This document shows, one piece after another, positions 8,701-33,900 of a DNA stretch of 64,000 nucleotides; the stretch's first letter is position 1; each line of letters begins with the position of its first letter. The notes under the pieces were generated by a model. The model was not told the origin of the DNA. It saw only the letters and a program-made list of their open reading frames with translations, and did not search any database. The position numbers and the translations under genes are program-made. Origin of the DNA: Echinarachnius parma (Eukaryota; Echinodermata; Echinoidea; Clypeasteroida; Echinarachniidae); contig JBAMJV010007109.1 in the NCBI GenBank assembly GCA_037951105.1, forward strand, positions 90,001-154,000. The letters run 5' to 3'.

Positions 8701-11700
8701 ACCTCATGGGGTAAAGTATGATTTCAAAGCTTGCATTTGGATTGTATAAATAACTTGAGCGATAGTTTAATCTTTGAAGGTTCCTATGGTAGCTTGTAGA
8801 GGGACACCACATGAAATATTCTTTCTTTGAATAGTGGTGGTCCTAGGAAGGATTCATCGCTCAAATATTTTTAACCACTGGAGTCATGATTCTCCTGACG
8901 ACGAACAGAACATACTGATCGAAACGTTGAGGACTTAGTGGGTCTGTCTTGGGACCGCAATAATCCAAGAAAGAATATTGGAGATGATGGATTGTAAACA
9001 TTCTCTTTCCAATTAGCAGTTGCATTGATTTTTAGAGAGAAATATAATCATCCCATTTGAAGGATTTTAAGTAATCCATGTTGAACTATCATACAAAGGG
9101 ACTGTAGGCAAAACACAAACAAAGATCTATGCACAAATATCTCTTACATTCCTGACCAGCTCTTGAAATGATTACAGGACCGCTGGCCAGGGGCCACTAC
9201 AAATGAGCTCTGGGCCACACTAATGTACTTAATTATGCTAATTAAATATTACCTGCCCAAATGGGCAACCAAGCAACATAATGTTTAGTGTACAATTGCT
9301 TTGTTGGGGGCTACAAAATCCAGGTTCCGGGCAACTAAAATTTGAGAAATCGTTATTTGATTTGCCCGACTTGGCCACAAAGCTACAAGGGAAGATAAAT
9401 AAATTGGAGCATTGCCTGTATGCTTTGTTGTGTGCATGTATTCTAGTTGAAGGTAGAAGTGATGCGTGAGTGAGGAAGCAGTGCCTGCAGGATGCCTAGA
9501 GCAACTCCTCCTGGGGGGATCTGTAGTAATCCATGTCAAACCATTAAAGAGAGGAACAGGCAAAAAACAAAGAACTTGCACAAATTCATTTATGTCCTAA
9601 ATACTTTGTAGTGTGTTTTCTAGCTGAAGGTGGAAGTGATGTATGGGTGATGAGGAGGGGCCTGCAGGATGCCTAGAGCAGCTCGTTGCCTCAAGGGAGA
9701 TCTGAGGATGGGTCTGGACAAACGCACAAACAGACAGACAGATAGATAAATAGATAGACATACACATACACAGATTGATCTTTGCTTAATCACAGTGATT
9801 TTCCTATTGTTTCCTAGCTGAAGGTGGAAGTGATGCGTGGGTGACGAGGCAGGGCCTGCAGGATGCCTATCATCAGCTCCTCCTGGGGGATCTGGAGACG
9901 GCCTTGGACAAGAAGCTGGAGCAGGAGCTCTGGAACCATGTCTTCAAGAACCACATCTCATCGCTGCAGCACAAGGCTCGTGATCGCATGGTGAGTAGAG
10001 CTGGATTGAGAAGATTGTACAGTATTCTTTATACATTTATTGTGGAAGTTTGTATGGCCTGTATGTTCTTATAATGTAATAAGAGCCTGTCTGTAATACC
10101 CTCGAGGGAGAGGAGAATGAGCTCTAGTACCGTGTCATCAAGAACCACATCTCATCGCTGCAGCACACTTCATTGATCGCATGTGAAGTAATCACTTGCC
10201 AATTAAAAATGGCATTTACACATATAAGAATGATCATGTACATGTATACATTTTGGGTAAGAACATTGATATGTATCATACTTTATGTTCTTCACATGAT
10301 TAATAAAGTAAATAACAATTGTTCCCGAGGCATTTTCTATCAAGTATTCTGCTGCAAGTACTTCATACTACAGTATTGGTCAAAATAAACTAACCCCCCT
10401 GTAATCTGGTACAGATGTATTTTGTTTTAAGAACATTTAACCGTGGGTATTATTTGATGCAGTGGTCTGGAGCTGTTTTAACCCATCCAGTAGCCCATTT
10501 CATAACACAGTTGCAAATGTTGTAAGTGTCTAATTATTGTAACTACCATGGCAACAGCTGTAATGCTCCATGCTGATTGGCTGTTGACCTAATAGTTACA
10601 ATAATTGGACACTTACAACAATTGCCAGTGTTTTATGAAATGGGCTACTGTAGACTGGTTAAACAAAAACTCTGTCTGACTTTCTATGGAGGATGCATGT
10701 TACACTCTAAAATCAAATAGTCTTAAACAGGTTTACAACATGTAGGGGATTGACAGGCTTCTGACGATATAATTCAATATACACCATGTGTTCTACACAA
10801 TGTTTGGTATTTGTGGTCAAGAGAATGAATCACTTCCTTTGTTTCTTTGCCTTTCTAAGAATTAAAACGCGTAAATTATAATTCGGTGCATTAGTCATAC
10901 CAGGTTAATCCAAGCAAATGTGGATGAAATGGCAAGGTATTATCAACTGCCTCCACACTAACCTTTTGTCCTACTTGACCATTCGGGGCAAGTGAATATT
11001 CAAACATTACTTGCTGGAACATAAAATGTACTTGCCCGAGAAAACTAATGTGAAACAAAATACAACTTAATTGCCTTAGGTAGCTCAACTTGCGTGGCAA
11101 ATTTCTCGCTTCTTTCTAGGTCAGGAATGACATTATTCTCTCATAGTTGGAACAGAAATGTTAGTTGCCCAATTGAACAACCAAACTAGACCATTTATGA
11201 AATTCACTTGCCCGTCATCAATTTTGACTTGCACCGTGCAACAGGGCAAGTGCTAGTGTCAAGCCCTGGTTATCACAAAATAATGCTTTGGGCATTTTAA
11301 TCCTTCGAATATATAATGTTCTCATTTTTTAGAAGAACTGATAATAATGACAGTGACAAAAGAGTGAATTTTTGTTAAAGTGATCAATTAAAGGGCAATG
11401 AAACTATGGCTTTCGGTTATTATTATCGTTTAGAGGGTGAACAGACATTTGATTTGATACATAACTTGGCAATTTTGGCCTCCTGGATCCCATGAAATCC
11501 TTACGTGAACATACCCACATTTTGCTAATTCTTACGGCGGCAAAAGATGATGGGAGCGGCCATAATCTTGTAAATACCCGACATGCTTTGCAAACTCTGA
11601 CGTATGTGCTTAGGGCCGAACAAAAAGCTTTTCACTGATTTCAAAGCATCTACAAGTATTCAGACAATGGTTTGAATTGGTGCTATTGAAATGCATTAGT

Positions 11701-14700
11701 GCATATCATTGACCGTAGTCCACACAAACCTAATAATGGCGGCCTCCAGTGTTCGCGTGAATAGTGGTATACCCGATTTAGCATTTTTGCTTACTGTTAC
11801 TAATGAGTGCATCTTTCTAGTTGTATATTTCCTCTTAGGTATCACTAATAATGGAAATAATCAATGTTTTTTCAGATCAATAACATCCATTTTGACTGAC
11901 CATTGGAGGCTGCCATATTTTCCAACGGAACCGCATGACATGCCATCTGAGCACGCACAAACAAAAGCGGGTTATGAAACCGCTGTTGTTGAATATGATG
12001 CTATGTCAGTGGTTACGTAATGTGCTTTTGTTAGTGCACGCTCAGATGACGCCTCATTTTTGCGGTTATATTCTGAAATGCCTTGTCTGAAATTGCACAC
12101 CTGTCAAAATGACATGCCTGCCAGCCTGTGTTCTAGGAGAAGAAACCCAAATTCATACGTGATAATACAAAATTCCTCAAACTTGTTTCTTTTCTTTTAG
12201 AACCCAAAGAGATCGGAAGTTCAAGCCATGCTGTCCCTAGTTCTCGACAATGCCAGTGGCTTCTATATACAGGTATGTATTCTTGATATTAAAGGGGAAC
12301 TAATCCCAAGAAATTGGTCCATAATGAATTTGCAAAATAACAATGTAATAAGTCAATAGATAACCGATAGTTCCAAATTGGTTACTTGTAATTGCTCTAC
12401 TTTGCTCCACAGAGAGATGTGATGTTCATTTTGTTTATATGATTATGACAATGATTATAATGATTTTTCTGATGAAAGTAATGATGATAATGAAAACAAT
12501 TGTGATTCGGTATGTTCTTAACCCGTAATGGCAAAGTTATTTTCTTTAGATTAAAGGGAAAAAAGAAATGGTTAGCCAGAACTGAACAATGAAAAAAGGC
12601 TATAACCTATTAAAGATGGTCAGCTACAAAATGTTCACTGAAGCACTAGTTCGTAGCCTACTTATATTTATGTCTCACACACAGTTCTTTCAAGAGATCT
12701 GCAGTGGGTTTGTTGTGGAGTTGGCATATCGTATCAAGGCCCAACGTTTGGGACGGTTCTCTGAGATGCTGCCCTCCCCTCAAAATCTGGTCCTGCCTAA
12801 TTTAAATAATAAAGCTTGTCATCATTCTACACATACATATCATAATTGTTTTGAATAACTATATATCAACTTTTCTTAACTGCCTAGCTGCTCCAAGAGA
12901 TCTGCAGTGGGTTTGGAGTGGAGTTGGCGTGTCGTATCAAGGCCCAGCGTCTGGGACTGTTCTCCGAGATCCTCCCCTCCGCTCAGAAGCTTGTCAAGCC
13001 CAAGGCGGCAACATGCCTCTACATCTGCCAGCACTGCTTGGTTCATCTTGGCGACATAGGTATGAGCATTCTCTTGCATACATGATCATGTTGGTACAGT
13101 CAAACCTGTCTTAGTGACCACCTGTCTGTAGCAGCCAGCCTGCCTATAGTGGCCGCAAAACGTGTTCCCCTGCATCAAAAAACAATATATGATGGAACCT
13201 TTCTTTTTTGCATAAAGAGTTGCGATTAATCGCAAAGTTGCGTTTTATTGAAAGTCAGAAAACATGCGCACTTGGGCCAATCAGAATTGCGCATTTAGGA
13301 GCTTTTTCAGACTTACGATTAAACACATCTTTGCGATTAATCGCAACTCTTTATGCAACACCCCCCAGGTTGCCTTGTCAGACCAGTAAAATAATGATTA
13401 CTAAATATATTTTGGTTGCCCAATCAGGCAAGTATAATTTGCCATTGATTAAATATTTTTTGACCCGAAGCTCACTTGTTGTGGTAGAGTGCCAGCCCCG
13501 GCTAGAGTTGTGTGCCGTCTGGCATTTGTTTGGCCCTTTTCTCCAAATTGTAAACTATTTGTAAACTCTCTGTTTTTTAATTTGTCATTTCCCCCTGTAG
13601 CTCGCTACCGCACCGACACCCAGCAGGCCGAAAGCTTCTACTGTCATGCGGCTAGCCTCGTCCCTTCCAACGGTCAGCCTTACAACCAGCTGGCCATAGT
13701 CTCGGCGACCAAGGGTGACCAGCTGTCAATGGTATTCTACTACATTAGAAGCATAGCGGTCAAGTACCCCTTTCCGGCCGCTGCCACGAACCTACAAACC
13801 ACCTACGCCAAGCTGGTAGACAGGTTAGTGTAAAGGTTATAATAATAGTATTTTGTCTGACGGTCAGCCAACTGGCTATAGTATCAGGAGCATAGCGGTC
13901 AAGTACCCCTTTCCAGCTGCTGCCACCAACCTACAAACCACCTACGCCAAGCTGGTAGACAGGTAAGTGTAAATTTTATAATAATAGTATTTTGCTGACG
14001 GTCAGCCAACTGGCTATAGTATTAGGAGCATAGTGGTCAAGTACCCCTTTCCGGCCGCTGCCACCAACCTACAGACCACCTACGCCAAGCTGGTAGACAG
14101 GTTAGTGTAAAGGTTATAATAATAGTATTTTATCTGACGGTCAGCCAACTAGCTATAGTATCAGGAGCATAGTGGTCAAGTACCCCTTTCCGGCCGCTGC
14201 CACCAACCTACAGACCACCTACGCCAAGCTGGTAGATAGGTTAGTGTAAAGGTTATAATAATAGTATTTTGCTGATGGTCAGCCAACTGGCTATAGTATC
14301 AGGAGCATAGCGGTCAAGTACCCCTTTCCAGCCGCTGCCACGACCTACAGACCACATACGCCAAGCTGGTAGATAGGTTAGTGTAAAGGTTATAATAATA
14401 GTATTTTGTCTGATTTGGTCAGCCAACTGGCTATAGTATCAGAAGCATAGCGGTCAAGTACCCCTTTCCGGCCGCTGCCACGAACCTACAAACCACCTAC
14501 GCCAAGCTGGTAGACAGGTTAGCGTAAAGGTTATAATAATAGTATTTTGTCTGATTTGGTCAGCCAACTAGCTATAGTATCAGGAGCATAGCGGTCAAGT
14601 ACCCCTTTCCAGCTGCTGCCACCAACCTACAGACCACCTACGGGCAATTCCAAGGTAACAGCGTGACGGTAGGAGGGTGTTTCTCACGATGAAAGTCTAA

Positions 14701-17700
14701 ATAACTCACAAAATAAAAATGTCCAGAACCAAATTTTGATATGCATCTGTTCCCACTATCCTACCAATTATTTACAATAGGAAAGAAAATCAAAATTCCC
14801 ACTAAATTATGAATTATGAATATCAATATCTGCGGTAACAGCGTGACGGCAAAAAGACATGGGTTTCTTACATGGTAAGAAACTAAGCAAACTCTGTGAA
14901 CTACAGGAACATTTTGCAATTTTGTCACATTGATTCTTTGTACTAGACATCAAGCTAGAACATCCAAATAAAAATGTAGAAAAAATCCAATGTTCATAGT
15001 AAATATGATATCATAAACGTATCTGTGCACGGTAACAGCGTGACGGTAACAGCGTGACCTCTGAATTGTACATGTTATATATATGGGAGATATTGATGAG
15101 ATGAATAAGATTATATAATTTTGATGTAGTCATCCAGAATCTATACAGAACTAGATGAATGGGTAATATAACCCAGATGCTCTGAAATGATGGTTCGCAT
15201 GACACAAATTTGCAGCCTAGCGCCCTCTATTGATCAAAAATGTTTTTGGACAAAACTGAAATTCTTATCTTTTTCAGAATTTAGTTTGAGGAACCATCAA
15301 TTATCAAACCCAAAATACAAACTTAATTGCAACAATGAAATATTAGACCTTTGACATCTGACCTTTGACCTTATTTCTCAAATTAGCATACAAATGTTTA
15401 ATTCTATGTCGGCACAGTGCATATCTACAAGTGATTTGTTACATGTAACATGATTTCAATGTCAGTAAGTTTTTGTGTTTGAATTGGTAATTATCCGAGT
15501 GACCTTTGACCTGTGCTCCAAACATTTCCATAGAATTTTCTTTTATCTACAGTATTCTTTCTAACATTAATTCTGGCATTTTTTTGTGAGATAAAAAATA
15601 AACTACAATAATTTGACCTGTTGACCTTTGACCCCATGACCAAATTCTATAATCAGGTCATCTACTTCACTGAACGCATACCAGTATTAATTATCATGTC
15701 ATCCTTCAAGGATTCTTGAAATATCTTGAGAATAATATATTTTGTGCATATTAATTAGCTGTGACCTTTGACCTTTGACCTCATGGCCCCAAAATGTATC
15801 AGATAATCCATACCTCTGAATACATGTCTTGTACAAAGTTTGAACCGAATCCATCCAACGATTCTTGAGATATTGCAAAAAAAAAGTAGGTTGCGTCACG
15901 CTGTTACCCAAAAAGTAACAGCGTGACCAAATTGATATTGCTTAGATTTATTAGTGGTAAAAGATAATGCTGCTATTTAGCATCCATAATATAGCTCTAT
16001 GGGTGAATGAAGAAGAAACAAAAAATAATTTCATTCCCATTCATATTTTTCCAGAAATATTAAAAATACCTGTTTTTAGGGTAACAGCGTGACATATAGA
16101 TGACTATAAATGAAACAGTCACTGAAGCAGAACAAAGAGCGAAAATTCCGAAATAGATATTTATCTGATAAATTGAAGTAATGTTCTTACCAACACTGAA
16201 AGAAAATGTTATGAAAACCTATTTTTGCAGCTCTTTTAAGCTTAATATTTACAAGTATATTTTGTGAAAATAATTGAAAATTAATTTATGCTAATTAATT
16301 CCTATGAAATAATAGTTTACGGCAAAATTTTTTTCGAAAAAAATGCATTTCTGAATAGTTTGATCTTTAAGCTTTAATTTGATACCAAATATGTTATGAT
16401 TCGACGAATTTGAAAAATGGGTGCTTATGTCAATGTTTGCTTGGAATTGCCCCTACGCCAAGCTGGTAGACAGGTTAGTGTAAAGGTTATAATAATAGTA
16501 TTTTGTCTGATGGTCAGCCAACTGGCTATAGTTTCAGGAGCATAGTGGTCAAGTACCCCTTTCCAGCTGCTGCCACCAACCTACAGACCACCTACGCCAA
16601 GCTGGTAGACAGGTTAGTGTAAAGGTTATAATAATAGTATTTTGTCTGACGGTCAGCCAACTGGCTATAGTATCAGGAGCATAGCGGTCAAGTACCCCTT
16701 TCCAGCTGCTGCCACCAACCTACAGACCACCTACGCCAAGCTGGTAGACAGGTTAGTGTAAAGGTTATAATAATAGTATTTTGTCTGACGGTCAGCCAAC
16801 TGGCTATAGTATCAGGAGCATAGCGGTCAAGTACCCCTTTCCAGCTGCTGCCACCAACCTACAGACCACCTACGCCAAGCTGGTAGACAGGTTAGTGTAA
16901 AGGTTATAATAATAGTATTTTGTCTGACGGTCAGCCAACTGGCTATAGTATCAGGAGCATAGCGGTCAAGTACCCCTTTCCAGCTGCTGCCACCAACCTA
17001 CAGACCACCTACGCCAAGCTGGTAGACAGGTTAGTGTAAAGGTTATAATAATAGTATTTTGTCTGACGGTCAGCCAACTGGCTATAGCATCAGGAGCATA
17101 GCGGTCAAGTACCCCTTTCCGGCCGCTGCCACGAACCTACAGACCACCTACGCCAAGCTGGTAGACAGGTTAGTGTAAAGGTTATAATAATAGTATTTTG
17201 TCTGACTGTCAGCCAACTAGCTATAGTATCAGGAGCATAGTGGTCAAGTACCCCTTTCCAGCTGCTGCCACCAACCTACAAACCACCTACGCCAAGCTGG
17301 TAGACAGGTTAGTGTAAAGGTTATAATAGTATTTTGCTGACGGTCAGCCAACTAGCTATAGTATCAGGAGCATAGCGGTCAAGTACCCCTTTCCAGCTGC
17401 TGCCACCAACCTACAGACCACCTACGCCAAGCTGGTAGATAGGTTAGTGTAAAGGTTATAATAATAGTATTTGGTCTGATGGTCAGCCAACTGGCTATAG
17501 TATCAGGAGCATAGCGGTCAAGTACCCCTTTCCGGCCGCTGCCACAAACCTACAGACCACATACGCCAATCTTGTAGACAGGTTAGTGTCAATGTTATGA
17601 GAGTATATTTGTCTTGACGGTCAGCCAACTGGCCAAGTACATCAGGAGCATAGGGGTCGAGCAAGAATGCACCTTTATAGTAGCACTGGATAGAATGCTC

Positions 17701-20700
17701 CCCAGGGAGTGACTTGTGTGTTTGTTTGTAGCATGTATCCATTGACCGGGATAATAATATTGGATGCATGGCCCTCTGAGACAACAGTGCAAAATTACTG
17801 TAGTGGTTACTTTTGATAAACAAAAACAGATTGATAATATTAATAATGATAATAATATTTTGATATATGATGACACGCGCAGTACCCCGAGGTACCGTTG
17901 TACCCCGGTATCCCGCGTTGTGTAGCGCCATCTTGTGTCCACCCGAAGTACAACCGTACCACAGAGCAATCATGGAGGTCGCTGGTGTATTGCGTTGTGC
18001 ATGCAGCGCTTGTATGCACGCTACCCTAAAAAAAAAAAAAAAAAATTAAAACAAAATGGCGGATTTTCATTTGGTACCCCAGGGTACCATTTATGTCATC
18101 ATCTATAGTTGATTAGATAAGATAGATAAGATAAGATAGATTAAATAATTGATATTGACTCTTCTGCTTTTGCGTTGTTGCTTTCTCTGCCACCAGGGAT
18201 GAGGTGAAGATCTTCAAGATGAAGGAGGTGGAGCTGATCCACTACTTCATCAAGTTTCATGCCATCATCTACCTGGCCTCTTGTGAACAAGGTAAATTAG
18301 TTTACTTATAAATACAAAGATTATATTTTGAAAATTAGAAAAGAAAATTGGGCTTCCCCAGGAATTGAATCAGAGACCTGCAGATGCAATTTCCAGTGAA
18401 GCCCAATTTTCTTTAGTCATTTTCATTTAAATTATATATTTCTGGTCAGTTTACCTATGTTTTTATGTACAAAGATTTTATGTGCAAAGGGGCATTTTAG
18501 TTACTTTAGTGTGTATCCTCAGAATTCCACCTGGAACCCCCTCTCCCAAAATTAGTTTTATTTGTACAAAAATGCTATGTGTAAACTGGCATCTTAGAGT
18601 CAACCCTTAGTCAAACCTGCTCTAGCGACCATGCAAATATAAAGTCCCCCTGGCTCCAAAGCCCACGATTTTGTGTTCCCTTGAAAGCAGTTCACCCGTT
18701 AATGAACCTGTCTACAGCGACCACTTGTATTAAAGACCACCTTTATCGTCTCCCTAGACGACATGTTTGACTGTAGTTTACAGGCATGTGAGACTGCGAT
18801 ATTAAAACAAACAAAAATATATATATATATATATTTTTTTAAATTAACGTAGATCTGACCAAATCTTACCTAGTAATTATGCAAGAATTATGAAAAATAA
18901 GGTTGAGAATGCACCAGAGAGCATTCAATACTCATAAACTTCAAGGCCTGGACCCCAGCCGCAATGGACTTTGTGCTCGCAATGTGCACTTCCCGCACAC
19001 TTGTGCAATTACGCCGTGACTTTCCTCTTTTTTTTCTTACCTCACACACATGCCTGAGTTTATTTACAGATTTTATGTGTGCCCTGAGTATTATCATTAC
19101 CTGCCTTTACCATTTCTCACCCACATTAACCACTTGGAACCCATCTAGGATTATTACCTACATGTACTTGGTCTGATTATCACCCATAATAACCACCAAG
19201 AACCTCCCTCAAAGTGTACCCATATAAGTATTACATCTTGAACCATTTATCACTCCCATTAACTACCTAGAACCCCCTCAAACTTAGCTCAAAGTAGATT
19301 CTTAACTACTTGGATTATTACCAACATTATCCATCTAGTACCATCATGGTAATGAGGGTTTTTTCAATAGCACATCTTGAACATGGACGTTGATGCATTG
19401 ACGTCACGTAACCAACCAAGCTTACCGCTATAAACCTCTTCTTATTTGATTATCCATGTATTTTGTATTTTCCGTATTGTTGATTCTTGATATATATAGA
19501 TAGTCCTTTTACAAATTTAATTGTTCGATAGATCTTCTAGTTGCCGGATCGTAATAAGAATAAGCTAGAGGACAACTTTCACAGTCACTTGTCACAGGCT
19601 ATCTTGACCAGTGGGGAACTCACCCATATAGCAACTATAAACCTCTTCTTATTCAATCTGTTTTTTTTTGTGGCAGTTTCACAGATTGTCGGTTCTTTTA
19701 TGAATTAATTGCTTGACAGATCTTGACATTTGTAAATTTAACTTACTTTTTCAGATCTTCAAGTTGCTGGATCGATCAAGGACAAGCTAGAGGAGAACTT
19801 CCGCAGCCACCTGTCCCAGGAAATCTTGACCAGTCGGCAACTGACCCAGATGGCTGCCATAAACCTCTATGCTTTGCACACCATACGGCAACTGCATACC
19901 AGCAACGGCCAGTGTGGCAAGACCAGTAGCAGCAACAGTGGTAGCAGGGCTGGGAGTGGTAGTGGCGAGCTGGACAGACTCTCGAGCGTTGTGGACACTA
20001 GCTGTGGCAAGCCATACGTTACCAACAGCGCACAGTGCTGGACACTCACTATGGGCTTCTCTTGTAAGTAGAGTCATTAATGAATTGTGCTCTTATCCTT
20101 TTGCTTTCTGATATATCTGTGAGTGTTTTGTAAAATCAACAAGATATCTCTGACTTAACGTGTTTAAACGTCACTTAAAGGGACTTAGTAACATTGTCCA
20201 AATCCTCAAAATAAAATTGTAATTCTAGCGGTTCCCTTATAGCTTGTTGTATTCGTATTAACAATAAAATCATGGGACAGGTTTCGGTTTTTCAAATTTC
20301 CCTTTCGTTACAAAGATATGTATGATTGAAGTATTCAGATAAGAAAAACTCCGGGCGAGTTTTTCTTCCATGTACAAAGTGAGTGCAGTGAGTTACTGAA
20401 TATCACTTTGCATTTTTGCTCATTACTTGGCCATACAATGTCCATTTGACTTGAAATTTTCACACAATAACCTGTGGACATATGAGTTAACAACAATATA
20501 CATTGCACCAACCATTCATCACTTTTTGCACATGTCAACAAAGTTACTAGATCCCTGGCCTGGTCTGCCTGCTGTCAGACTGATGCTTGGTTGGAAACTC
20601 CTCCAGCCAGGAATTACCATCATTATTATCAATCGACATCGACAGCATCATCATCCTATTTTCATGATTGATTGCTAATTGATCTTTTGTATTTGCTTCA

Positions 20701-23700
20701 TTCCCCAGTCAATCTGCTGCAGATGATGCTGCACTACATGCCCCAGAAGGCAGCGGAATCCCCCCTGGACGCCTGGCCTGGTCTTCCTGCTGTCAGACTG
20801 ATGCTTGGTTGGATTTTCCTGCAGCCGGGAATCTTTGACGACCCAGTCCTTACCACCAAGACCAGGTTTGTAGCCGTGCAGTTAATTTAGATTCTCACTA
20901 TTGCATTTTGTCATAAAAACTCTTAAAAGGGTGCCCTAATCTGAGTTTCTATGCCGTTTATGGTAAATGATAACTTCCGGTATGCAATTAAGCCTAATAG
21001 AAAATTTGCAGTTGTCAATTAAGTAGTTGTTAAAATATTTGTAAAAACATCTCTGAGCAAACAAAATTTGAGCAAAATTAGTAAGGAAATATGATAGTTA
21101 CAACAATTTGAACTTCAAGGAGAGATGGGACGTAGTTTTGAAAGCGGTGCTGACTGTGGCATTATTCATGAGCAACCACTTATTAGTGTTGTACACAGAT
21201 TTGTACTTATACACAGGCCATTTGATGGAGTTATATGCAAAAGGCCATTAACCCTAATCCCACTGGGTTATTTTGATCACTTGAGTCCACTGGGGGGGGG
21301 GGGGGGGGGGGCCATTTTGGCGCCCCCTCAAATCTCGGCAACGAATGGACCGATTGACTCGAAAATCGGCACATACGTAAAACTAGTCTAGTAGAATAAT
21401 AATTTGAAGAAAGAAAAAAAAATTGGACCATTATTTTTTTTTTTATAATTAATTAAAATTTTGAATATGCAAATTTTTGACGAATTTGGGGGAAAATTGG
21501 GATTTTCATCTAAAATCAAGAGAAATTACAGGATTTCTTCAGGTTTTCAGGTAAAAATACTTTCAAATGATGTAATTCATCATATCCATGTTTTTTATGG
21601 TAATAAAATATATCACTAATTTGCATAAATATGCAAATTAGTATTCCCGGATTTACCCACATTGTTTTCTTTCTTATGTATTTTATTGTTTGTATTGTTT
21701 TTTTTAGTTTTTTTTTTAGAAGAATTTATCTCTGAAGTGTATGAATTAAACTAATAACAAAGAAATAATCCAAATTATAATTCAATCTAACAATTATAAC
21801 AGATTTGGAGTTTACATGGCATCGGATGTAGGAATTGCATAGAAACCTGTACAAAAATTGCATTTTTTTTGTGACGGTCGAGCAATTATCGACCTCTAAA
21901 ATCAGTTCTACATGTCCGACCGGGGTGAATTATATATCAAAACGTGCGGGAGACTTGAGAGAAAAAAGTCATGAAATTTGAACGTGAAATTATAATCGGT
22001 CTAGATGCACGTCAAAAAAAACGACAGGGGGGGGGGCCAAAATGCCCCCCCCCCCCCCCCCAGTGGGATTAGGGTTAAGTCATTTGTACCAATTAAAGAA
22101 AATTTCAATTGAATATGATGTAGAACAATGACAAAAATAAGAAAATATGTGATAGTTTTGATCCTAATATCCTCTATTTTCTAATAACTCACTTTTCTAC
22201 AACTTTTCCTTGCAGTGTTTGGAGCAAGCTAGGCCGAGTGCTGACATCACTACAGGTTGACAGCGCACCCCGCCCCGATGACTCCACCAGTTCCCTGCCC
22301 CTCCCCGAAGACAACCTGTTAGATGGGTTCACCCCGCTCCAAGATTTCCAAAGGTAACATTGAAGAGACTGCGTCGTTGCTTGAAATAATTACAAAAAAA
22401 ATGACTTGGGGAGAACGAACTGAAACTGACAGCAAATGGACACCATCCCTAAATTGTCAATTTTGGTTCAGTTGGTTTTACTTGGTTTTGATCTGTTGAC
22501 AGTTTAAGTGGTCGAATGTACACTCAATTCGGGCGACGAATGCAGACCAACACAGGATAGAACATTTCTTTTGTTACCCCAAAGCTTACATTTAGTCGAC
22601 ACCAAATTAACATCACCTTGAATATATTTGTGAGAAGGTATAAAGCGGTTAAGCTGGGAGTGAATTGAATGAACGAGGAGAGATGTTTTTTTTTTCTTTC
22701 TTAAATTTGGATCTTGACTATGGTTAGAGTAAGCGATCAGAGGGGAAGTGAAGCAAAATTAATCCATTTAGAGGGTTGCTATCCTAGGGCAAGAGTCTCG
22801 AACACTAAGCTATCAACTGTCTGTTTGTTTCTTTAATTAGGGACCTAGACTTTGGTCAGAGTAAGCGGTCAGGCTGGGAGCGGTGTGAGATGGACCAGGA
22901 GAGATGTCAGAGGCTGTCTGGTCAAGGCAAATGGCTCGCACACCATCAACCAAGGTAAGGCACATAAGTCCATCTCTATTGAATAACACATTGTTTGACC
23001 ACGGCCAGTTCAAAGCAGCGATCTATTGCACATGACAATGGTAAATGCGTGTGCACTTACCAGGCTAGTAGTGGCATGAACGCAGGGTCATTTCCTGTGC
23101 GTAATAATGTTTAGTCGAGAGTTTGGCCTTTATTTTTTTGGTTTTGACAAACAATTGGATCGCAGCATAACAAAATATAACCCTTTCATTTGATATTTAA
23201 ACAATATTTCTTCATCCTCTAGGCTATACAGCATGTTTTTTGCAACTATACCACTTTCATTATCACTCATCAGTATTATTTCAAACTTTGATTTATCCTT
23301 TTTATTTTAATGTTACGATTCCTTTGATTTTCCACTCAAAAATAATTAATTACCCTTGTCATCCAACTCCTAATTTCTCATAATTGCAGTCTGCTAAAAG
23401 TGGAGACATCTGCTGGCAAGCTAATGTTCACCAGTCCCCTTGGAGACGATGCTGCATCCCGAAGGTCCTCCCATCACCAACAGAGACAGCTCCGGGCTAC
23501 CAAGACACCCATTGCTAGCAAAGGTACGTCCAACAATAATCTACCCATTGCTAGCAAAGGTAGGTCCAACAATAATCTACCCATTGCTAGCAAAGGTAGG
23601 TCAAACAACAATCTACCCATTGCTAGCAAAGGTAGGTCCAACAATAATCTACCAATTGCTAGCAAAGGTAGGTCCAACAATAATCTACCCATTGCTAGCA

Positions 23701-26700
23701 AAGGTAGGTCCAACAATAATCTACCCATTGCTAGCAAAGGTAGGTCCAACAATAATCTACCCATTGCTAACAAAGGTAGGTCCAACAATAATCTACCAAT
23801 TGCTAGCAAAGGTAGGTCCAACAATAATCTACCCATTGCTAGCAAAGGTAGGTCCAACAATAATCTACCCATTGCTAACAAAGGTAGGTCCAACAATAAT
23901 CTACCCATCGCTAGCAAAGGTACGTCCAACAATAATCTACCCATTGCTAGCAAAGGTAGGTCCAACAATAATCTACCCATTGCTAGCAAAGGTAGGTCCA
24001 ACAACAATCTACCCATTGCTAGCAAAGGTAGGTCCAACAATAATCTACCAAATGCTAGCAAAGGTAGGTCCAACAATAATCTACCCATTGCTAGCAAAGG
24101 TAGGTCCAACAATAATCTACCCATTGCTAGCAAAGGTAGGTCCAACAATAATCTACCCATTACTAGCAAAGGTAGGTCCAACAATAATCTACCAATTGCT
24201 AGCAAAGGTAGGTCCAACAATAATCTACCCATTGCTAGCAAAGGTAGGTCCAACAATAATCTACCCATTGCTAGCAAAGGTAGGTCCAACAATAATCTAC
24301 CCATTGCTAGCAAAGGTAGGTCCAACAATAATCTACCCATTGCTAGCAAAGGTAGGTCCAACAATAATCTACCCATTGCTAGCAAAGGTAGGTCCAACAA
24401 TAATCTACCCATTGCTAACAAAGGTAGGTCCAACAATAATCTACCCATTGCTAGCAAATGTACGTCCAACAATAATCTACCCATTGCTAGCAAAGGTAGG
24501 TCCAACAATAATCTACCCATTGCTAGAAAAGGTACGTCCAACAATAATCTACCCATTGCTAGCAAGGTAGGTCCAACAATAATCTACCCATTGATAGCAA
24601 ATGTACGTCCAACAATAATCTACCCATTGCTAGCAAAGGTAGGTCCAACAATAATCTACCCATTGCTAGCAAAGGTAGGTCCAACAATCTACCCATTGCT
24701 AGCAAAGGTAGGTCCAACAATAATCTACCCATTGCTAGCAAAGATAGGTCTAACAATAATCTACCCATTGCTAGCAAAGGTAGGTCCAACAATAATCTAC
24801 CCATTGCTAGCAAAGGTAGGTCCAACAATAATCTACCCATTGCTAGCAAAGGTATGTCCAATAATAATCTGTTTGATCTATGTTATGAGGGAATAATTCT
24901 TAATGATTTGTTTCACTTTAAAAGGAGAAAGTTGTGATGCTATGTAGGCCAAGCTGTATTGTTTATTTGTCTCCATGGTGATAATGCAATAGCGACACCA
25001 GAGAGAGATTAAACCATTGATTACTAACAAAGGTATGTCCTATCAACATTAGGTTTCCAGACAAATTATATAATATGAAAACTCATCAAAATATTGAAGT
25101 ATGTTTTCATGGGTCTGCAGAAGAAGACTAGTCTGTTGTCTAGAAATATGCATCTATAATGGTTCTATTGTCTCCAAACTTACGTGTGTATAGAATTGGT
25201 GCAATCGCAAACGTTTGGCACTTACGAAGCAAAGGCCCTGGTGGTTCTGTAAGTTTTGGTGATTAATTGCATTGTTTATGAATTACACAACCCTGTGCAA
25301 TGTGTTGGACATCTATTTTATATCAAACAACGGTACCAAAACATATAAGCCTGTATTATTCTTTCACTCTTTGCTTGGTGGTCCCCTTGAATACTTGGGT
25401 GCCTTCTTCTTTATCTGTAGGTGTAGAGGCAGTCACAAAGAGTGTGGCCACTGATGTGAAGGAGATACCCAAGAAGGCCGGAAGGGATGGAGCCCCGAGG
25501 AGGGAGAGCAAAGGAGAGGAGGACGGACAGAGCAAGACCATTGCAGTACAGGTACGGTCAAAGGCAGTGGCCTACAGTCAAACGCAGTGGCATACAGTCA
25601 AACGCAGTGGCCTACGGTCAAACGCAGTGGCCTACGGTCAAACGCAGTGGCCTACGGTCAAACGCAGTGGCCTACGGTCAAACGCAGTGGCCTACGGTCA
25701 AACGCAGTGGCCTACGGTCAAACGCAGTGGCCTACGGTCAAACGCAGTGGCCTACGGTCAAACGCAGTGGCCTACGGTCAATCGCAGTGGCCTACGGTCA
25801 AACGCAGTGGCCTACGGTCAAACGCAGTGGCCTACGGTCAAACGCTGTGGCCTACAGTCAAACGCAGTGGCCTACAGTCAAACGCAGTGGCCTTACAGTC
25901 AAACCTGTCTTAGCAGCAACCTGTCTATAGATAGCAGCTAACCTGCCTAATGTGACCACCAAAAGTGATCCCCTTCACTGGAAAACAATGTTATGGAACC
26001 TGTCTATAGAGGTCACTGTTCTTGTTTCCCTTGGGTGATCACTATACACAGGTTTGACTGTAGTTACAGAGGAAGGAGGTTATAATTAGTTTATTTTTTG
26101 GAATTAATTATTTTTAATTAATAGCCAATATTGTATGGCTTCATATACGTAGGTACTTCAAGAGGATTTAACTAAGAAGTTACTTTTCTTGAAGTACTTA
26201 TCTGAAGCCATATAAATTAATCTATTAATTAAAAAAGTATATAGATATAGATATGATGATGTACAAAAACAAGTCTTGACTTCTTTTTTTAAAATCTTTG
26301 AAAGGATTGTGAAAGATGTTTTTAAAAAAAGGAAATTTACCTTTTCATTTCCTGTTCTATTCATATCTGGTGTTAGCTTATGGGGAGTGGGAGGAGGTTG
26401 GGGGGGGGGGGGGGGGGGGGTGAGGGTAAGGGGGAAGGGGGAAGAGTGTGCCCCTTTCCCCCAATAAGTGTGCCCCCTCTATAATTCAGACCACGCTACC
26501 CCCCTGGTCAACCATGCTCTACCAACCACCTGTAAACAAAGCCCACTGTCTGTATGTCAGGAAAGAATGATTGTTTTATTTTATAATTTACTCCGCTGGA
26601 GCCACAAAACCAGGTGGGGAAAGGAGTCAAGTCTCTGTTGCTGTTGTTGTTGTGGTTGTATTGTTATGCAAGCCTCCACGCTAATAATTTTCTCTACTGG

Positions 26701-29700
26701 GCCCCCCATTAGGCAAGCAGAATCATAACTTTTAAATTGCCGACTTTACTTCTAGATAAGATTTACATGTAAAGAATTGCATTATTTTCTCCAAGTCGAC
26801 CAATAAATCAGTTGCCCAGTCGGGCAACCAAACTAGGCCATTTATACAATTTTACTTGCCCGACATCAATTTTGACTTGCCCGGGGCAAACGGGCACTGT
26901 GTTAGTGTCGAGCACTGTGTTATGAATAAAATGCTCCGCTTGCGCACGACTCTGAACAATTGCCCTGCGGTCATTTTTGATGTGACACTGTGAAGACCAC
27001 GTCTCTTGACTCCACAGGAACTAGGAAGCAGTCCATGTGTTAATGAACCTGTCTACAAAGACCACCTCTCTTGACTCCACAGGAAGTAGGAAGCAGCCCA
27101 TGTGTTAATGAACTTGTCTATAAAGACCACCTCTCTTGACTCCATAGGAACTAGGAAGCAGTCCATGTGTTATGAACCTGTCTATAAAGACCACCTCTCT
27201 TGACTCCATAGGAACTAGGAAGCAGTCCATGTGTTAATGAACCTGTCTATAAAGACCACCTCTCTTGACTCCATAGGAACTAGGAAGCAGTCCATGTGTT
27301 ATGAACCTGTCTATAAAGACCACCTCTCTTGACTCCATAGGAATTAGGAAGCAGTCCATGTGTTATGAACCTGTCTATAAAGACCACCTCTCTTGACTCC
27401 ACAGGAACTAGGAAGCAGTCCATGTGTTAATGAACCTGTCTACAAAGACCACCTCTCTTGACTCCATAGGAACTAGAAGGCAGTCCATGTGTTATGAACC
27501 TGTCTATAAAGACCACCTCTCTTGACTCCATAGGAACTAGGAAGCAGTCCATGTGTTAAGGAACCTGTCTACAAAGACCACCTCTCTTGACTCCATAGGA
27601 ACTAGGAAGCAGTCCATGTGTTAATGAACCTGTCTACAAAGACCACCTCTCTTGACTTCATAGGAACTAGGAAGCAGTCCATGTGTTAATGAAACTGTCT
27701 ATAAAGACCACCTCTCTTGACTCCATAGGAACTAGGAAGCAGTCCATGTGTTATGAACCTGTCTATAAAGACCACCTCTCTTGACTCCATAGGAACTAGG
27801 AAGCAGTCCATGTGTTAATGAACCTGTCTACAAAGACCACCTCTCTTGACTCCATAGGAACTAGAAGGCAGTCCATGTGTTATGAACCTGTCTACAAAGA
27901 CCACCTCTCTTGACTCCATAGGAACTAGGAAGCAGTCCATGTGTTAATGAACCTGTCTACAAAGACCACCTCTCTTGACTCCATAGGAACTAGGAAGCAG
28001 TCCATGTGTTAATGAACCTGTCTACAAAGACCACCTCTCTTGACTCCATAGGAACTAGGAAGCAGTCCATGTGTTAATGAACCTATCTATAAAGACCACC
28101 TGCCTGTAAAGACAAGGAAAGGGGGAATTCAGCATGTAATGAAATTAACATTGAAGGATTATTTTGTATCTTGCTTAGGAGACAATTAGAATTTGATTTT
28201 GAAATGAGTTGGTGCAGTTCGATTTTATAACCAATTAGCTGATTCTGACAAAATTAGTTTGTACTGGTGTGAAAGTTATTCATTATTATTGAAATTATGT
28301 AATTGCTGATCTTGGGGGTGTTTCACTACTAAACACTAAAATTGATTGTAACATTGATTTATCACGAAAAATCAATGCTAAAATCGATTTTAGAGTTAGT
28401 GAAACACCCTACTGATGTCAGTCTAGAACTAATTGATGATGCGCCATCAATGGACTGTCTCTGAGAACTTCTTCTTTTTGTCTTCCACAGGCCATCATGT
28501 CTCGACCCACCAGTGAGGGCAGCAAATCTGTCACCTTCAAGGTCCAAGAGAAGTCGACTACAACTGGTGGCCCATCAAAGTCCTCCAAGCAGACGTCCAC
28601 CAAGGACCAGGACGCCCCTAAACGCCACGTGCAGTGGCAGAATCCGCCCCATGCCTTTGCCCAGGAACCCTCCTACTTCCCCCAGCAGAAGACCTCACAC
28701 CCCGCCCAGCCTCAGACTCAACAGCAGCTTCATCAGGCCGGTACGCAGACCGGTCTGCCCCCACCGAAGGGCGTGCCAACCCAACAGTCACAACAGGGGC
28801 ACATTCCCAGTCAACCAGCGCAGGGGCACATGTCCAATCAACCCTCGCAGGGTCACATGTCCAATCAGCAAGTACAGGGGCACATGCAGGGTCAGCAGTC
28901 GCAAGGGCACATGCCCCACGGACATGCCCCCCCTCCAAGGCACCCCCATCCCCAGCCAGCAGCCCAATACCCTCAACAGCAAGGCCCCCCTCCTCCTCAG
29001 CACTTGCCCCACCCCTATGGTTACCCACCTCCACCTAGAGGGCCACCACCCCCTTCCCTCGGCCTCCCGCCCGACCAGAGGTTTCCCCCTCCAATGGGAC
29101 CCCCACCTCCGTTTCCAACTTCCCAAAATGCCCCTCCTTCTAGAGGGATGCCCCCTGGCCCCCCTCCTCCGCCCCATGGGCACTCGGGTCCTCCTGGATG
29201 GCCGCAGATGCCGCCGCATATGGATGGAGGTCGGCCAGACGGGCAGCAGAATCTGACTAGAGATGATCCGTCAGCTCACATTGGCCGAGATGGGATGCCA
29301 CCACCGCCTCACATGCAGCCTCCAAAGGTTCAGGTCAGTAGCTGTCGTGTGCTTAACTCGCTTCAACCCAAATCCTTATTTGCCATCTTGTACAAAAGAA
29401 TAGACTCTTAAATGCTATCTTTTATATTAGTGATATCCTGTGCTTATTCTGATTTGTCAAAATCCTTGAAACATAAGTAGAACACAATTGTTGTATCATT
29501 GAAAGATAAAAATGGTACAGATAATAGTAATAACATTTCTTTTTTTTAATGACACACATCTCCACCAGATAAATCATATATCATTTTACTATGATTATCA
29601 CCACCGGTGACACAAGGACTAACATCGCACAATAGCTTCTGCACCAAGAACTAAAATAACATGGCATCTTTAAAGGGCTCCAATAAAAGTAAAGTTATCT

Positions 29701-30928: not shown

Positions 30929-30959
<31 letters not shown>

Positions 30960-33900
30960 AAGCATCCCAACTACCTGGAGGACCTCCACCGCAAATCCTC
31001 GACGGCCATGGAGCAAACCTCCTGGAGCTACTGACCAAGATGCAGAAGCAGATAGTGCCGGAGGCGGCCATCAGTAAACCTGGCTTCCCCCAGGATTTCC
31101 AGAGCGATGTCTTCAACATGGACAGCACCAACCCTCCTCAGCAGCCAAAGAGCGTTATCAAGGATCCCCCAGGATTCAGCAAGCCACCCGAAGGCTACCC
31201 CTCGTACAAGGACCACCAGATGGCTAAGGACAACAGCGGGTTGGGGATGTCGGACTACTATCGTCTGCAGCAGGAGCTGCTGAAGGAAAGTAGCCAGGGT
31301 CCTAGCCTAATCCACAGTGGACCTCCGGGAGAGTCTGCATTCCGCAAGGTGCAGCCTCAGCATCAGCAGCAGCAGCATCATCTTCAGCAGCAGCAGCAGA
31401 GAGATGGAGAGGACGCGCTCTTCCTTCGTTCAGGCGTGGATTCCAAGGATCCAAGGAACCAGAACCATCCCTTCTCCTTCTTTGCCACCCCCGACGGAGG
31501 TCAGCAGGAGAAGCAGCAGCTGCTTGGAGGCGAGAGCTTTGGCTTCGGGAGAAACATCTTTGGTCAGGAGTCAAGGTTGGATGAACCAGCACAACCTTAC
31601 AGGTAATATATAGATTAAAACAAACATTATTTTAGCTGGGCGATAAGCGAGATGACATTCCCAGTCTGTTTTAATAGGGATAATAAAAGCTTTCGCTTTG
31701 GGAGTAATATCATTGGTTAGGATTTGAGGTTGGATGAGCCGGCCAAACCGCTTTCTTACAGGTAATATTTAGATTAAAGATCTTTTGATATTTTTATGTT
31801 TGCTTTTCATTAGAACAATGTTTTTACTTGGCTGATAAAATTGCGGGGCTATTTTAACGTGGAAAATGAGTTTTGGATATAAAAGGGAGAAATATATTTG
31901 TTCAGGAGTTGAGGTTGAATGAACAAGCATATGTTAAGTCCCATAAATATTATACTTTAGATTTACTATGTAGAATACAATGAGAATTTTGACATAGAAT
32001 AATTAGTAATGCAAATAACATTGTTATTTTGTATGCCTCTGCACGAAGTCATGTTTTCGGATTGTCAGTCCATCCCTAAATCTTTACATCCATTCTCGTG
32101 ATCACGATTTCTCAAGAACCGATTGACAGATTACCATCAAACTTGGTACACGTATGTATCGTCTTAGCATAACATATGTTTATTCTCTATTGTCAGGCGA
32201 GCTTCCGGGAGTCTGTACGAGACATCGAGCAAGACGGGTGCCCCTACCAGCACCACCGGCAAGGACCAGCCATGGGGCACTAACGGGAGAGAAGGGGGTC
32301 AACAGCACACCCTAGATGAGGGCATGTTGGACTACTTCCCGACCCACGCACCGGGCAGTCGTAGCGGGAGTGGCAGCGGTTCGGACAAGCTATCGGCCAG
32401 CTTCGATGGTCGCTGGCAGGACGGCGGTGGTAGTGGTAGTGGGAGGGACCAGAGATCCCAGGAGAACAGTCGAAGGTCCTCACACGATGCCCTCTACACG
32501 CAGGTCAGTAAACGAAGAACTGAAAAATGAACCCCTGTTAGTCTTAACTCTGTCATAGTGAACATCCAGAACAATGGCGTCTGTAAAATGACTATGCTAA
32601 TATTTTCTTTGTTCATTTTCATTTCTATTATATATTTCTGGTCAGTTTCCATCTGCTTGTAATAATAGATTTTATTTTGTAGTTTTGACGAATTAGGTGA
32701 TACGTGATCTATGTGATCATGAATAATTACATTAGTGCAAGGTGAAAGGAATGTTTATTTAGTATCTTTCTATGTATTAAGATATGATTCCGCAGCCATA
32801 TATCAGTTTCAAAGATACTGTACAATAAACCTTTGACACTATTTTACAGAATGAAGAAATAATTGTCATGATTTTATCTTATTTTTTATTTACTATCAAG
32901 GGTACGCTACTCAGTGGCGCATTATTACCCTTGGTCATTGACAAAATCAAATCCAAGTTTTCCTCCCTTTATATATGTTCTTGGAATCATCAACGTTGTA
33001 CTGAAAATGAAGATTGTAGTTTACTTGTCGAGGAACACTTCACGCATTTCTAACGGGAACCTGGTGGATCCTGTACTAACTCTAGACAGATTTTAAAACC
33101 TAGTTGGGCGCCATTGCAAAGCATTTTTTTTAACTGAACGACCTACCCTGTATTTTTGAAGAAGACAAGAATAAACAATCAAAAATGAAATAGGGAACAG
33201 GTTAATAAACTGTTATTGAACACACTGTCATACTAAACGTTGTCCCGCTCTGGAGCCAATGGTGAAAGGTTGTTCTCTGGTGATTCTGGTGTGGGTTACA
33301 AGGGGAACCCCCGCGGAGGAGAAGAGTGTGTTCTCCAGCAGCGGCGGCAGCTATTTCCTCTTTAGCTCACCCTGCCCCAGTAGCCCATTCCATAAAACAA
33401 TTGCAATCGTTGTAACTATTTGGTCAACAGCCAATCAGCATGGAGCATTACAGCTGTTGCCATGATAGGTACAATAATTGGACACTTACAACAATTGCAA
33501 GTGTTTTATGAAATGGGCTACTGGTCTGAACACTCAAACACTTTCTGTCATGAATATGTGTTGAAGTAATCATTGTCCCTTTCTCAAATGCAGATGAACT
33601 CTGGAGCCAATGGTGGGAGTTTCTTCTCCGGTGGTTCTGGTGCGGGTACCAAGGGGAACCCCCCGGAGGAGGAGAACGTGTTCTCAAACAGTGGTGGCAG
33701 CTGTTTCCTCTTTAGCTCACCCTGCCCGAGGTCTGGACACTCCACATTTTCTGTCATGAATAATGTGTTGAAGTAATCATTGTCCCTTTCTTTAAAATGC
33801 AGATGAACTCTGGAGCCAATGGTGGGAGTTTCTTCTCCGGTGGTTCCAGTGCGGGTACCAAGGGGAACCCCCCGGAGGATGAGAACGTGTTCTCAAACAG

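Follow-up and report, generated by a model that had tools for sequence, protein, structure and literature searches.

Introduction

A splice-donor minisatellite was reportedly described in the human IFI6 gene (6-16, G1P3) by Turri et al. in 1995; its unit is 12 bp long and keeps the reading frame. Tandem duplication of segments bearing AGGT is also a known route of intron gain. The closest counterparts of the locus considered here are the mirages of amphioxus, repeats of exon-intron boundaries for which two reports (PMC3087553, PMC3902484) give length differences between haplotypes and regular splicing, with Adh3, the globin genes BflGb6 and BflGb9, troponin C and PGBD5 as examples. In this work, we analysed a 36-bp minisatellite that repeats the 5' splice site of an exon of SMG7, found in a stretch of 64,000 nucleotides from an echinoderm (G000:C7100:90001-154000, within a 1.2-Gb assembly; hereafter the window, on the + strand of which all the exons, splice sites and exon-edge arrays mapped below lie).

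Like the amphioxus mirages, the SMG7 array has many units with AG/GT (the slash marks the splice junction), and its unit number differs between what are apparently two haplotypes: an amphioxus globin mirage has 6 and 3 units, and the SMG7 array 38 and 11 donors. It differs from them in that its unit is triplet and open, and in that its regular splicing is a prediction from DNA; that the host is an echinoderm and not a cephalochordate concerns the host, not the structure. The frame-keeping unit length of IFI6 has a parallel in the 36 bp at SMG7 donors 1-29, although it is lost at donor 30. Intron gain of the AGGT type likewise involves tandem copying of splice signals, but the SMG7 copies extend an existing intron, and no new intron is evident. 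IFI6 shares with SMG7 a minisatellite at an exon end, and its repeat units act as donors; however, gene and sequence are unrelated, and use of downstream donors is stated for IFI6 alone (PMC4526556).

We conclude, with a probability of about 0.8, that the SMG7 array is a mirage-type minisatellite in which the first donor is spliced and the remaining copies are intronic. It is most likely a striking case of a repeat type already described, here in a host group new to it, and not a new switch of protein length. A literature search on exon-boundary minisatellites of sea urchins returned none by title, which is not proof of absence from print.

Results and discussion

Layout of the array

Tandem Repeats Finder (TRF) reported the minisatellite at positions 23507-24870 of the window, with 38.0 copies of a 36-bp unit and 95% matches, and the occurrence of such a tandem array is far beyond chance. 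The first unit spans the donor at 23524, that is, the repeat crosses the exon-intron boundary. A unit map placed 38 donor positions between 23524 and 24852, with GT kept at 37 of them; the exception, donor position 35 at 24744, reads AT. Most units end with AAAG/GTAGGT or AAAG/GTACGT, as the initial annotation had stated for all of them, and the rest include AAT and AAA variants besides the single AT. The match to U1 extends over seven of nine positions in donors of the AAG types, and over six of nine in the AAT and AAA variants. The first 5' splice site, AAG/GTACGT at 23524..23529, is probably the only one used; its predicted openness, considered below, falls within the range of the other SMG7 donors. 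Beyond the array, a single diverged unit bearing AAAG/GTATGT stands apart (25010..25040).

Donors 1-29 are spaced by exactly 36 bp (23507..24566), and all of them are in phase with exon 13. The donor of exon 12 is of phase 1 (AAA G/GT), and exon 13, which starts at 25421, has the matching phase. The claim of about 29 in-phase donors, ending at 24570 and capable of joining exon 13 in frame, was therefore borne out. The array itself was found to continue for a further 300 bp (24567..24870). Because the unit before donor 30 (24567) has 35 bp, donors 30-38 are out of phase; a unit of 33 bp precedes donor 34. Eight of these nine out-of-phase positions retain GT.

The consensus unit is open in two of the three forward frames. 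When GGTAGGT and AAA were preserved, 58% of 20,000 shuffled 36-mers were open in the relevant frame; with a further factor of 1/3 for length, the chance of a unit both open and in phase is about 0.19, which is unremarkable. The in-phase unit of 36 bp is probably a coincidence.

The host gene

The exon encoding RYRTDTQQAESF... aligned to human SMG7 (1ya0) with an E value of 1.1e-28, and the exons joined around exon 12 with an E value of 7.6e-10, the latter alignment ending at residue 488 of the 497-residue construct. By homology, the gene carrying the array is SMG7. SMG7 is a factor of nonsense-mediated decay. As judged by the 1ya0 match, the structured region finishes in the first part of exon 12 (23390..23523), and the remainder of the exon, up to the phase-1 donor, encodes linker. 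The first array donor is located 28 residues beyond the last residue aligned to 1ya0, in a linker which should be disordered. Exon 13 occupies 25421..25551. The number 12 is that of the initial annotation. According to the coordinates, the introns around exon 12 have 435 nt upstream and, measured from donor 1, 1,897 nt downstream.

Two lengths of the array

A query of two units against the assembly matched at two places, the window contig (C7100) and a second contig, C2934. The latter matches the window in collinear order between about 870 and 50232, in pieces with gaps and with 82-98% identity per piece (those over 300 bp being listed). Its array has 11 donors, all 36 bp apart and all in phase, compared with 38 donor positions in the window; repeat number does vary, as had been suggested. 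The isolated diverged unit copy is present on both contigs. Unit variants are specific to each contig, which indicates separate turnover of the array on C7100 and C2934. C2934 is apparently the other haplotype, a recent duplication being the alternative.

Other arrays of SMG7 also differ between the window and C2934: the 139-bp units described below number 15 and 2 boundary copies, the 20-bp units 17.5 and 10.8, and units of 22 bp 21.2 and 2.3, respectively. An inflated unit number, or misassembly of the second contig, might be suspected since a single assembly is involved and tandem arrays are difficult to assemble. Nevertheless, the contig-specific unit variants, the collinearity in pieces over 50 kb and the similar length variation of several other SMG7 arrays make an artefact of assembly extremely improbable.

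Coding constraint on the units

Substitutions were counted in 38 units, 10 from C2934 and 28 from the part of the window array that runs from donor 1 to donor 29; the nine window units past the phase break were excluded. The 18 distinct changes from the consensus comprised 4 synonymous and 14 nonsynonymous ones, and the synonymous share expected under neutrality is 0.23-0.30. Ten SMG7 exons compared between the contigs, with gapped codons set aside, showed 29 synonymous and 13 nonsynonymous changes, with a ratio of nonsynonymous to synonymous rates (pN/pS) of 0.13. The two patterns differed with a Fisher p of 0.0015, a value to be read in the light of the exchange of variants among units and of the juxtaposition of two kinds of comparison. 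By this measure, the array units behave as intron, without coding constraint, unlike the exons that surround them.

This result bears on the possibility, raised by the initial annotation, that the array works as an in-phase switch. Several of the 29 donors would then be used, and the linker of SMG7 would contain 12-residue repeats whose number varies by allele and perhaps by tissue. The 29 in-phase donors match U1 almost equally well, all 11 donors of C2934 are in phase, the insert (GRSNNNLPIASK peptide repeats) would lie outside the part of the protein that can be aligned to the SMG7 crystal structure, beyond its end, and human IFI6 provides a precedent. Yet the units lack coding constraint, the window array has kept nine out-of-phase donor positions, and related arrays in the genome have non-triplet periods. 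We therefore regard such a switch as quite unlikely. Also unlikely, in our opinion, is a wider reading in which either some in-phase downstream donors are used, so that the count of 12-residue linker repeats depends on the allele, or out-of-phase donors are used, which would produce decay targets and a feedback on the level of SMG7.

Sister arrays in HOIL-1 and other genes

To find comparable loci, the genome was searched for three AGGTAAGT octamers spaced by 20-50 bases. Among the matches listed, 106 overlapping ones were obtained with this pattern and 548 with the reversed-pattern control, which is possibly inflated by simple repeats; as the control exceeded the pattern, genome-wide enrichment of tandem donor octamers was not found. 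The listed matches fell into 13 array families, of which three, microsatellite-like, were dropped and ten were examined over a few hundred bases upstream of each. Four of the ten start at likely exon ends, with periods of 32, 38, 41 and 35 bp; beside the other six no exon end was seen in the upstream bases inspected. The exon end is clear for L051 (HOIL-1, 35 bp), probable for L025 (CUB-like, 32 bp) and L033 (coiled-coil-like, 38 bp), and possible for L043 (41 bp), which has no Pfam match; the CUB-like and coiled-coil-like matches are below the Pfam cut-offs.

In the HOIL-1 (RBCK1) gene (G000:C8084:80000-81200), about 29 units that repeat the final 35 bases of the RING1 exon come after it, and 28 of these units were located with a donor of the form TTCTGCAG/GT (CAG/GT). 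The exon, ending with ...RECLHTFCR, gave an ungapped alignment to human HOIL-1 (7yui) up to the first donor, with an E value of 1.4e-13. The period is not a multiple of 3, and since inclusion of one more unit would break the reading frame within RING1, the first donor should, on the strength of this homology, be the functional one.

The four sister arrays, as well as the SMG7 arrays with units of 139 and 20 bp, are all non-triplet, so selection for a triplet unit length is unsupported among them. The view of the initial annotation that the units serve as protein sequence likewise found no support, given the absence of coding constraint, the non-triplet sister arrays and the case of HOIL-1, where the conserved RING exon would stay free of an insert with the first donor alone.

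Choice of the donor

A mechanism that would account for these observations begins with a tandem duplication of the end of the SMG7 exon together with the start of the following intron, after which the duplicates would grow and shrink in number through slippage or unequal exchange. Recognition of exon 12 across the exon is to be expected because its flanking introns are long, and the donor closest to the upstream acceptor would then win. Copies 2-38 would be intronic and neutral, free to vary in number and multiplying unseen. At most, the triplet unit would mean that a later donor, if occasionally used, does no harm and adds 12 residues per unit to a probably disordered linker.

Experimental background for this mechanism comes from a study of competing donors (PMC9225289). 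In minigenes with identical strong donors and flanking introns of 365 nt, the upstream donor was used exclusively in all five constructs, and with flanking introns longer than 250 nt the minigenes bearing identical donors used the upstream donor alone; weakening of both donors led mostly to skipping of the larger exons. For human events, the same study states that the upstream donor is preferred in about 60% when the donors are of nearly equal strength, and that this preference is favoured by long introns. Taken together with the long introns around exon 12, both above 250 nt, the minigene results imply that donor 1 should win and that later copies become intron.

Several points weigh against this conclusion. 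Over all human events, according to the same source, it is the downstream donor that is preferred in about 60% (PMC9225289), and in IFI6 two downstream repeat units are reported to act as donors as well (PMC4526556), so exclusive use of the first donor is not universal. The substitution analysis draws on just 18 distinct array changes, which are non-independent since units exchange variants. Moreover, an in-frame partner exon is not confirmed for the CUB-like array: splicing to the single downstream acceptor that was inspected would not continue CUB in frame, which leaves that exon model unproven.

Another explanation for the use of donor 1 would be that the RNA of the array folds on itself, hiding most of the later donors and leaving the first one open. 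GGUAGGU can pair with downstream AUCUACC, and a palindrome, UUGCUAGCAA, lies between units. In most GTAGGT copies, the 9-nt donor is predicted to be unpaired with a probability of around 1e-5 (range about 2e-6 to 2e-3); the corresponding values are 0.012-0.018 at donor 1 and 0.0003-0.06 at the nine other SMG7 donors examined. On C2934, donor 1 is predicted to be the most open of the 11; however, donor 2 is nearly as open (0.031 vs 0.035), and two donors of the window, 27 and 31 (AAT/GTACGT), exceed donor 1 in predicted openness (0.039 and 0.062), with donors 35 and 38 about as open as it. The folding energy per base of the array was reached by one of 300 dinucleotide shuffles and by none of 300 mononucleotide ones, whereas burial of the donors was equalled in 31 and 20 of 300, respectively. 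Across five further arrays, the rank of the first donor in predicted openness was 8/28, 7/10, 11/11, 5/8 and 7/11, and only in HOIL-1 (8/28) was this donor clearly above the median of the rest. Structural silencing is thus an unlikely explanation, though folding may help in the SMG7 array, as an effect that would be local at best. As a general mechanism, burial of donors in RNA structure was rejected on the basis of those five arrays.

Exon-boundary minisatellites, described in cephalochordates and in human IFI6, are hereby extended to an echinoderm, with SMG7 and HOIL-1 as two identified genes. The natural lengths of 11 and 38 nearly identical donor positions in one gene offer a ready test of how the spliceosome chooses among equal donors, as a rule of proximity to the exon predicts exclusive use of the first donor regardless of the number of competitors.

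Other duplications in SMG7

Two further arrays of the same gene involve exon ends. One, with a unit of 139 bp, repeats the last part of the SIAVKYPFPAAATNLQTTYAKLVDR exon together with its donor (13750..14642) and has a second block at 16452..17658; these are the units of which two boundary copies are present on C2934. The 20-bp array (25553..25904) starts at the donor of exon 13, and its consensus unit has no GT donor.

Additional, partly decayed copies of SMG7 exon edges were noticed at window positions 9437-9960, 12685-13000, 22693-22901, 31543-31778 and 33248-33936, as if exon ends that were duplicated locally in tandem accumulated in the gene. The boundaries of SMG7 showed no enrichment of duplications: 7 of the 28 examined had a further copy in the window, compared with local duplicates for 282/942 intronic and 42/204 exonic probes; about six of the 28 boundaries (the Eb, Ee and Ef donors, the Ek acceptor and both ends of Eo) are roughly placed, and the count leaves aside a likely exon that lies between Ec and Ee.

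An intronic array of 65-bp units, with about 17 copies, lies at 26993-28101 and was not reported by TRF on C2934. An SMG7 exon also contains CAG-rich tracts (30929-30960 and 31351-31398 in the window, C2934:19478-19503 and 19036-19080), and their lengths and units given by TRF differ between the two contigs.

The mitochondrial genome of the host

The assignment of the host to echinoderms agrees with mitochondrial COX1, which scored 930.4 bits against PDB chain 8ugh_4A when translated with the echinoderm code, and 913.5 with the invertebrate code. Amphioxus, considered at first as the host, was rejected on this test of the code. Its codons include 18 ATA, 4 AGA and 14 TGA. The transfer RNA cluster and the gene order match the arrangement in sea urchins and sea cucumbers. 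The ends of the mitochondrial contig (G000:C14600, 19,741 bp) overlap by about 4 kb with 97% identity, which is what a circular molecule would give if reading continued beyond the starting point and assembly was imperfect.
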